This document shows, piece after piece, positions 8,442 through 9,794 of a stretch of 64,000 nt of DNA. Origin of the DNA: Denitrobaculum tricleocarpae (lineage in GTDB: Bacteria > Pseudomonadota > Alphaproteobacteria > Kiloniellales > Kiloniellaceae). The position numbers and the translations under genes were made by a program. Within the stretch, counting starts at the first letter, position 1. Each line of letters starts with the position of its first letter. The notes under the pieces were generated by a model that searched no databases, was not told the DNA's origin, and saw only the letters and a list, made by a program, of their open reading frames with translations. Location: positions 62,001 through 126,000 of the forward strand of contig NZ_ML660055.1 of the NCBI RefSeq assembly GCF_007004665.1, written 5' to 3'.

Positions 8442-9794
8442 TCACGCCTTTTTCGGTGTTGTCTTCGGGGCTGCCTTGGGGGCCGCCTTAGGAGCCGCAG
8501 GCTTTTTAGCCGGAGCCTTCCTGGCGGCGGTCGTCTTGGCGGCGGCCTTCTTAACCGGCGCTTTTCTGGCTGCCGGCTTTGGCTTAGCAGCAGCTTTTGG
8601 CGCTGCGGGCTTTTTAACCGCAGGCTTTTTAGCAACAGTCTTTTTCACGGCTGCCTTTGCTGTTGTCGCTGCCTTTGCCGCGACCTTCTTTACCGCCGCC
8701 GCAGGTTTTGCTGCGGCTTTCGCCACAGCCTTCTTGACCGTGGTTTTACCTGGGGCTTTAGCGGCCGCTTTCTTTGCCGGTGCTTTTTTAACGGGCGCCT
8801 TTTTTGCAGGTGCCTTGGCAGCAGCCGGTTTCGCCGGTGTCCCCTTCATGATACCTTTACAGACATCAACCAGCCCCTTCACAGAACCGACCGATTTGTT
8901 CAGCATCGCCTTTTCGCTGGCGTTCAACTGCAATTCAACGACGCGCTCCGCACCGCCGGCACCGATAACCACCGGCACGCCGACATACATGCCTCTGACG
9001 CCATACTGTCCGTTGAGGCTCACAGCACAGGGCAGCACCCGCTTCTTATCTTTCAGATAGCTCTCCGCCATGTTGATCGCGGAGGCGGCGGGCGCATAGA
9101 ACGCCGACCCGGTTTTCAGCAGGCCGACGATCTCGGCTCCGCCATTGCGGGTCCGATCGACGATTTCGTTCAGGCGCTTGCGGGTGATCCAGCCCATCTT
9201 GATCAGATCGGGCAGCGGGATACCGGCAACCGTCGAGTAACGCACCATCGGAACCATGGTATCGCCGTGGCCGCCCAGCACGAAAGCGCTGACGTCCTCG
9301 ACTGACACGTTGAACTCTTCCGCCAGGAACAGTCGGAAACGCGCGGAGTCCAGGACCCCGGCCATGCCCACGACCTTGTTGGCCGGCAGGCCCGATGCCT
9401 GCTGCAGCACCCAGACCATGGCGTCGAGCGGGTTAGTAATGCAGATCACAAATGCGTTCGGGCAGTTCTTTTTGATGCCTTCGCCGACGGCCTGCATGAC
9501 CTTGATGTTGATGCCCAGAAGATCGTCACGGCTCATACCCGGCTTGCGCGCGACCCCTGCGGTCACGATGACCACGTCGGCGCCTTTGATGGCGGTGTAC
9601 TTGCTGCTGCCGGCAAGCTTGGAGTCAAAACCTGCGACGGTGGAGAGCTGAGCGATGTCGAGTGCCTTACCCTGGGGCACACCGTCGACAACGTCGAACA
9701 GCACGATATCTCCCAGGTCTTTCAGTCCGGCGAGCAAAGCCAGCGTACCACCGATGTTACCGGCACCTACGAGCGCGATCTTCTTGCGAGACAT
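8442..9794 (-). CDS. mdh: Malate dehydrogenase with C-terminal histone-H1-like tail
   Basis: Residues 1-318 are a complete LDH-like NAD malate dehydrogenase: GAGNIGG (10-16), Asp34 for NAD specificity, [10 protein letters not shown] with Arg83 and Arg89, ITNPLD (119-124), substrate Arg152 and catalytic GGHGDTMV with His176. The family normally ends near residue 320. Here the frame continues without a stop for about 130 residues made almost only of Lys, Ala and Pro in [10 protein letters not shown]-type repeats (coding bases 8445-8837), like bacterial H1/AlgP-type nucleoid proteins. The start at 9794 has an AAGGA ribosome binding site 7 bases upstream, so the 19-codon extension to 9851 is unlikely. 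The tail could bind DNA, RNA or polyanions; that is inference. Confidence 0.93.

Follow-up and report, generated by a model that had tools for sequence, protein, structure and literature searches.

A malate dehydrogenase with a histone H1-like basic tail in an alphaproteobacterial genome and its relatives

The window analysed here (the whole stretch of 64,000 nucleotides; positions 62001-126000 of contig 4) comes from a 6.4 Mb genome, hereafter G000, whose nearest named relatives are Kiloniellaceae/Pelagibius. It contains mdh, a gene for malate dehydrogenase (MDH), whose frame runs on the minus strand from an ATG at 9794 to a stop at 8442 and encodes 450 residues with no internal stops (Table 1). 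mdh belongs to a series of genes on one strand, transcribed in the order ZapE-like gene, mdh, sucC, sucD, odhA and odhB. The last four are named after their presumed families, and the first is presumably ZapE-like. The ZapE-like gene is near mdh in 10 other neighbourhoods that we compared. In 14 of the 15 neighbourhoods compared, tailed and tail-less alike, sucC comes after mdh; it was not found in the fifteenth, a short stretch. In one genome (G118, locus L257), a long-tailed mdh has two sucC-sucD-like pairs downstream. A scan of the window with Rfam at gathering cut-offs gave no RNA elements.

Table 1. Genes and protein regions around mdh (positions in the window)
Feature	Position	Strand	Remarks
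mdh, encoding malate dehydrogenase with its long basic tail	8442..9794	-	450-residue open reading frame; matches MDH profiles
MDH catalytic body, residues 1-320	8835..9794	-	last helix 292-316; from profiles, alignment, AlphaFold2 and fold search
Lys/Ala/Pro-rich H1-like tail, residues 321-450, with the stop codon	8442..8834	-	net charge +41; predicted disordered
sucC (presumed)	6994..8190	-	next gene downstream of mdh; net charge -20; no basic tail
sucD (presumed)	6118..6993	-	net charge -10; no basic tail
odhA (presumed), 2-oxoglutarate dehydrogenase E1	3105..6059	-	short basic C-terminus IAARKAAAAKQPAAKSGKK
odhB (presumed)	1299..2993	-	net charge -21; no basic tail
ZapE-like ATPase gene (presumed)	10056..11174	-	upstream of mdh

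The sequence-only reading of this locus had proposed a complete MDH core ending near residue 320, and the profiles and structures bear this out. Residues 1-315 match TIGR01763 (415.8 bits, cut-off 351.85) and NF004863 (462 bits, cut-off 283), both above their cut-offs. R83, R89, D149, R152 and H176 (numbering of the 450-residue protein), the presumed catalytic and substrate residues, are invariant in all 49 aligned MDHs. The best fold matches in the PDB are the MDHs of Brucella (3gvh) and Methylobacterium (4ros/5ujk), with TMt of 0.96-0.98 and 72-75% identity in the fold search. The body is complete, as in these bacterial NAD-dependent, LDH-like MDHs (TIGR01763). In the AlphaFold2 model (residues 2-450, 49 aligned sequences), pLDDT is mostly above 90 as far as the last helix; residues 322-450 have pLDDT below 50 and no secondary structure. 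This alignment was used instead of one of 11 sequences, which gave a poor model (mean 46.7). The protein differs from the solved MDHs in two ways. Their chains have 320 and 324 residues, whereas here 130 additional basic residues, predicted to be disordered, follow, and the body in G000 is itself basic, with a net charge of +8 over its first 309 residues. Judging from its sequence, the product of 8442-9794 is probably an active TCA-cycle MDH turned polycation.

The claim that a basic tail of the H1/AlgP type continues in frame from the MDH also held. Residues 321-450 are 30% Lys, 40% Ala, 14% Pro, 7% Val, 7% Thr and 2% Arg, with no Asp or Glu and a loose period of five residues, and they raise the calculated mass from 33.4 kDa (residues 1-320) to 46.0 kDa. 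A calculated trypsin digest leaves six peptides of at least 6 residues beyond residue 312, and two of these are identical. The isolated tail scores 40.6 bits against Pfam HC2 (PF07382, gathering cut-off 40) and 53.5 bits in a whole-genome search; the full protein scores 38.4 bits by hmmscan, slightly below the cut-off, and the match is one of composition. The H1-like models of NCBIfam stay below their cut-offs (NF038053, 22.1 against 80 bits; NF038052, 16 against 135 bits), and no phasin model is among the Pfam or NCBIfam matches of the protein.

The tail is of a known kind, H1/AlgP-type, here on a TCA enzyme. It resembles HC2-type H1-like proteins in composition and in a profile score on either side of the cut-off; in contrast to the HC2 example of G000, which stands alone, it is the C-terminus of an MDH frame. 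It also resembles the tails of AlgP and PhaF of Pseudomonas, which are C-terminal, rich in Lys, Ala and Pro, of the KPAA type and disordered, as the MDH tail is predicted to be. AlgP has 154 residues of repeats, compared with 130 residues in the MDH tail. The net charges of those tails are given as +55 (AlgP) and +35 (PhaF) (PMC9239181). AlgP and PhaF begin with a helical or phasin-type domain that serves granules or oligomerisation, whereas the protein here begins with a catalytic dehydrogenase. Topoisomerase I, Ku and ribosomal L21 likewise carry a basic, low-complexity Lys-rich tail on a folded protein, but these proteins already act on nucleic acid and MDH is metabolic. A literature search by title and start of abstract, with most subscription papers outside its scope, found no report, among the papers listed, of an MDH with a Lys-rich, H1-like, PAKK-type or DNA-binding basic C-terminal tail.

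The tail is genuine coding sequence. A search of related MDHs, suggested by the sequence-only reading, found it in frame in all four genomes of the genus that were compared (G000-G003) and in G007, which is from another genus of the same family. The assemblies that carry it include one of Pelagibius sp. Alg239-R121 (L039) and two of uncultured Kiloniellaceae (L031, L032). The same in-frame tail in independent assemblies excludes an assembly error, and with it the frameshift or missed stop near base 8840 that had been named as a possible source. In the closest pair (G000 and G002), dN/dS is 0.12 in the tail and 0.00 in the body. Given its presence in all four genus genomes together with this ratio, the tail is neither chance nor an assembly slip. 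Replacement changes are much commoner in the tail (pN 0.040, compared with 0.000 in the body), and the differences fall at third codon positions of the mdh frame in 54 of 55 cases in the body and 27 of 38 in the tail. For more distant pairs, dS in the tail is saturated or unreliable because the repeats align loosely. Antisense frames over the tail (e.g., 6250-9060, plus strand, 936 residues) were rejected as by-products of composition, with the differences mostly at third positions of mdh.

The tail is conserved as charge and composition, not as sequence. After residue 320 it is 114-144 residues long in G000-G003 and G007, and its net charge is +41, +42, +40, +38 and +42, respectively. Compared with G000, 30 of 111, 49 of 122 and 49 of 113 tail residues differ in the three more distant tails. 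Simulations of point substitutions only, with as many residue changes as were observed (1000 runs per pair), lost both charge and composition: the observed net charge was kept in 0 of 1000 runs for the pairs of G000 with G003, G001 and G007, and in 54 of 1000 for G000 and G002. That this closest pair lacks acidic residues is unremarkable (205 of 1000 runs). In-frame duplication of KAP repeats, which lies outside the simulation's model, would likewise preserve composition, and the alignment of the repeats is uncertain.

The bearers of tailed MDHs belong to a mostly marine bacterial group. A class-wide search of 142 genomes gave matches in 126, and C-terminal ends were read in 30 loci taken from it (L208 unmapped); the result rows themselves do not show how long a tail is, since the search runs on past stop codons. 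In all, ends were taken from 145 loci, which gave 126 distinct MDH rows after removal of duplicates (L077 and L208 unmapped). In this survey and the survey of the order, lengths were counted after residue 312. Seven of the 126 MDHs have a long tail (at least 90 residues), 34 have a short basic tail (12-48 residues, net charge at least +5) and 85 have neither; of the 42 C-terminal extensions of at least 12 residues, 41 have a net charge of at least +5. Among the 61 genomes of the order, the MDH end could be read in 55: 6 have a long tail, 23 a short basic one and 26 neither. The other six had no match (four) or were cut off (two).

Long tails have appeared repeatedly. Besides the genus, they occur in a second genus (G007), another family (G059, 310 residues) and another order (L182, 98 residues). 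On the tree of MDH bodies, all but one of the 28 rows in one group (SH-aLRT 94, unstarred) are tailed; this group includes the long-tailed MDHs of the genus, G007 and G059, and L182 lies outside it. The long state requires four changes on the best tree, and well-supported branches force three. Tail length varies between close relatives: the congeners G059 and G060 have bodies that are 98% identical and tails of 310 and 48 residues, and another close pair has tails of 7 and 12 residues. The MDH of G059 (L179) is 622 residues long, and its tail has a net charge of +97. Since long tails are found mostly among short basic tails on the tree, it seems that an older short tail was expanded more than once. 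The repeated 5-mers of the G000 tail have identical codons at 50 of 185 positions (0.27), no more than expected (0.34), so this tail looks old. The tail of G007 has a strong 5-residue period and identical codons at 0.59 of repeated 5-mer positions (0.45 expected), which suggests newer repeat copies there than in G000.

The body of the MDH changes charge together with the tail. The mean net charge of the body, taken over the first 309 residues, is -4.5 in MDHs with no tail (n=85), +3.9 in those with a short tail (n=34) and +7.7 in those with a long tail (n=7), and body charge correlates with tail length (Spearman 0.77 for loci including duplicates, 0.74 for the 126 distinct rows). Independent contrasts on the midpoint-rooted MDH tree retain the association, both for tail length (r 0.29, p 0.001) and for tail presence (r 0.20, p 0.03). 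It also holds for tail length when the last helix (the last 24 body residues) is left out (r 0.24, p 0.007). Changing the branch floor does not remove it, and larger floors make it stronger. The positions with the largest shifts include 65, 68, 70, 109, 113, 205, 206 and 267 as well as several between 289 and 303, in or before the last helix. L182, whose long tail is independent, has a body of +7, compared with -4 to -9 in four neighbouring tail-less rows. There are exceptions: L191 (+9) and L207 (+7) have basic bodies without a tail, and L105 (-1) and L188 (-2) are tailed with non-basic bodies. The charge of SucC shows no trend with MDH tail length (rho -0.04; 93 loci, SucC read over at least 380 residues), with means of -19.2, -15.2 and -14.1 next to long, short and no tails. 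The shift is therefore not proteome-wide drift, as far as SucC, as one control enzyme, can tell.

The best explanation, which we hold tentatively and at a little under even chances, is that this MDH docks electrostatically on a polyanion, either nucleic acid or polyphosphate. MDHs of this structural family are tetramers. If the protein analysed here is one too, then a disordered Lys/Ala/Pro tail directly after the last helix of each subunit would give four tails and about +200 charges per particle (4 x +50). Such a particle could dock, in a multivalent and sequence-independent manner, onto nucleoid DNA, RNA or polyphosphate granules. Docking would concentrate the enzyme on the polyanion, leave its chemistry unchanged and presumably bring a benefit. 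This mode of action would be akin to the proposed working of the AlgP and PhaF tails. The KPAA-rich tail of AlgP is described as required for the spacing of polyphosphate granules, and that of PhaF is proposed to link granules with DNA (PMC9239181). In E. coli YihI, a disordered Lys-rich region is described as binding polyphosphate (PMC12345225).

Several observations point to docking. The five long tails of G000-G003 and G007 stay between +38 and +42 despite the divergence of their sequences, and the tail is HC2/H1-like by profile, with scores on either side of the cut-off. The genome also encodes an H1-like protein and has a match to the polyphosphate kinase family (200.4 bits, cut-off 31). 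Tethering to nucleic acid or polyphosphate is plausible, with indirect support from the charge shift of the body. Against docking, we count the loose length of the tail (48 and 310 residues within one genus), the frequent replacement changes, the exceptions in body charge and the use of SucC as the sole control enzyme. More broadly, it is possible, and more speculative, that an MDH polycationic in both body and tail sits on nucleoid, RNA or polyphosphate in several alphaproteobacterial lineages, that TCA flux or the supply of NADH and oxaloacetate is thereby spatially coupled to chromatin or polyphosphate, and that charge, not sequence, is selected. The known carriers of basic H1-like tails act on DNA, RNA or storage granules; here such a tail has been enlarged several times on an enzyme of central metabolism. 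Together with the shift of the body from negative to positive, this makes a natural case in which to ask whether core metabolism in bacteria is arranged on a scaffold of polyanions, and relatives with tails of about 0, 25, 48, 130 and 310 residues are a ready length series for such testing.

Tolerated repeat expansion is the main and strongest rival to docking, and we judge it somewhat unlikely. In lineages with a tendency to Lys/Ala/Pro repeats, a short basic tail would have been lengthened by in-frame repeats and be nearly neutral, with selection acting only against stops, acidic residues and hydrophobic residues. The large jumps in length between close relatives and the DNA-level similarity of the repeat copies in G007 fit this. 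So does the recurrence in the order of KAP tails on proteins that, by their sequences, are presumably TopA, ribosomal L21, GroES and a trigger-factor-like protein. However, charge and composition are kept, the tail of the closest pair has the low dN/dS given above, the repeats of G000 look old, and the charge of the MDH body moves with tail length.

A second rival, which we consider quite unlikely, is an electrostatic metabolon or a means of substrate retention: the tail could hold acidic SucC, SucD, OdhB or citrate synthase, or dicarboxylate anions, near MDH. mdh, sucCD and odhAB are adjacent, SucC, SucD and OdhB are acidic (Table 1), and citrate synthase has a net charge of -9 and no basic tail. 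In B. subtilis, MDH is described as clustering with isocitrate dehydrogenase (PMC11189929), and an MDH-citrate synthase metabolon has been both discussed and doubted (PMC11461322). For a metabolon with SucCD/OdhAB, the suggestion comes from gene adjacency and from the acidity of SucC, SucD and OdhB as read from sequence. However, the charge of SucC shows no trend with tail length, and G031 and G056, which have no tail, likewise have sucC after mdh. Acidic enzymes are common, and the metabolon therefore has no evident specificity.

The sequence-only reading had also proposed that loss of a stop codon joined mdh to a neighbouring H1-like gene; we reject this as very improbable, and the related idea that the tail was copied from the H1-like gene of the genome is so too. 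The tail does resemble HC2 by profile, and G000 does encode a stand-alone H1-like protein of 445 residues (HC2, 284.9 bits). Its gene is on contig 1 (774443-775780; L158:4444-5781, plus strand), not beside mdh. In the relatives, it is sucC and no H1-like gene that follows mdh, and the relatives carry graded short basic tails (12-48 residues). The H1-like protein is built of a 10-residue unit, KKPVARKTAA, whereas the period of the MDH tail is 5 residues, and the ratio of the Lys codons AAG:AAA is 121:12 in the H1-like gene and 23:16 in the MDH tail. From these sequence comparisons, the tail most likely began as a short basic tail that later expanded, and did not arise through fusion with an adjacent gene.

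There is also a slim chance that an internal start at the ATG of codon 316, at the junction, yields a free H1-like protein besides MDH: the ATG is present in G000 and matched in G001-G003, with a ribosome-site-like AAAGG (G000, G002, G003) or AAGGG (G001) just upstream, but long-tailed G007 has no Met at the corresponding position, and short-tailed L006 and L008 share the Met and are similar just before it, so the ATG and the motif may just encode the end of the last helix.

The stand-alone H1-like protein also occurs in G001-G003; its end, which lacks the repeats, is conserved as FRYVWSNGAVSR or a close variant. A survey of 867,372 bases of G000, with our own thresholds for Lys/Ala-rich ends and with the H1-like locus included deliberately, found seven frames with Lys/Ala-rich basic ends: MDH, OdhA (short), a TopA-type protein (L156), a class II aldolase-like protein, two small proteins and the H1-like protein. 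The names TopA-type and class II aldolase-like (L120) are presumptive. The class II aldolase-like frame, on the minus strand of L120 (contig 1, 40001-60000), has a basic tail of about 69 residues. The basic C-terminus of OdhA (window 3105-3200, minus strand) is conserved across G000-G003, and in four genomes of genus g2 the corresponding region has an acidic end.

In the order as a whole, the HC2 profile at E 1e-5 matches in 40 of 61 genomes (above the cut-off in 26) and in 0 of 14 controls; at E 10, four of the 14 control genomes have matches, none above the cut-off. Stand-alone H1-like proteins are found in 19 of 29 genomes with a tailed MDH and in 3 of 26 with an untailed one, a co-occurrence that we dropped as support because it comes from only two independent pairs and is confounded by descent. 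Lys/Ala-rich tails are present on a presumed GroES-like co-chaperonin (L175 in G054; a Lys/Ala/Pro tail of about 90 residues), on a presumed trigger-factor-like protein and on two presumed L21-like ribosomal proteins (L236 in G024, L177 in G014 and L237 in G047). Within the window, 45696-46130 (minus strand) encodes a presumed ribosomal S16-like protein, with an acidic EEAPA repeat tail whose charge is opposite to that of the MDH tail. Lys-rich low-complexity regions are described on DNA-binding and ribosomal proteins, L21 included, and linked to nucleic-acid binding, and S16 is listed as one of the ribosomal proteins rich in low-complexity regions (PMC6821194).
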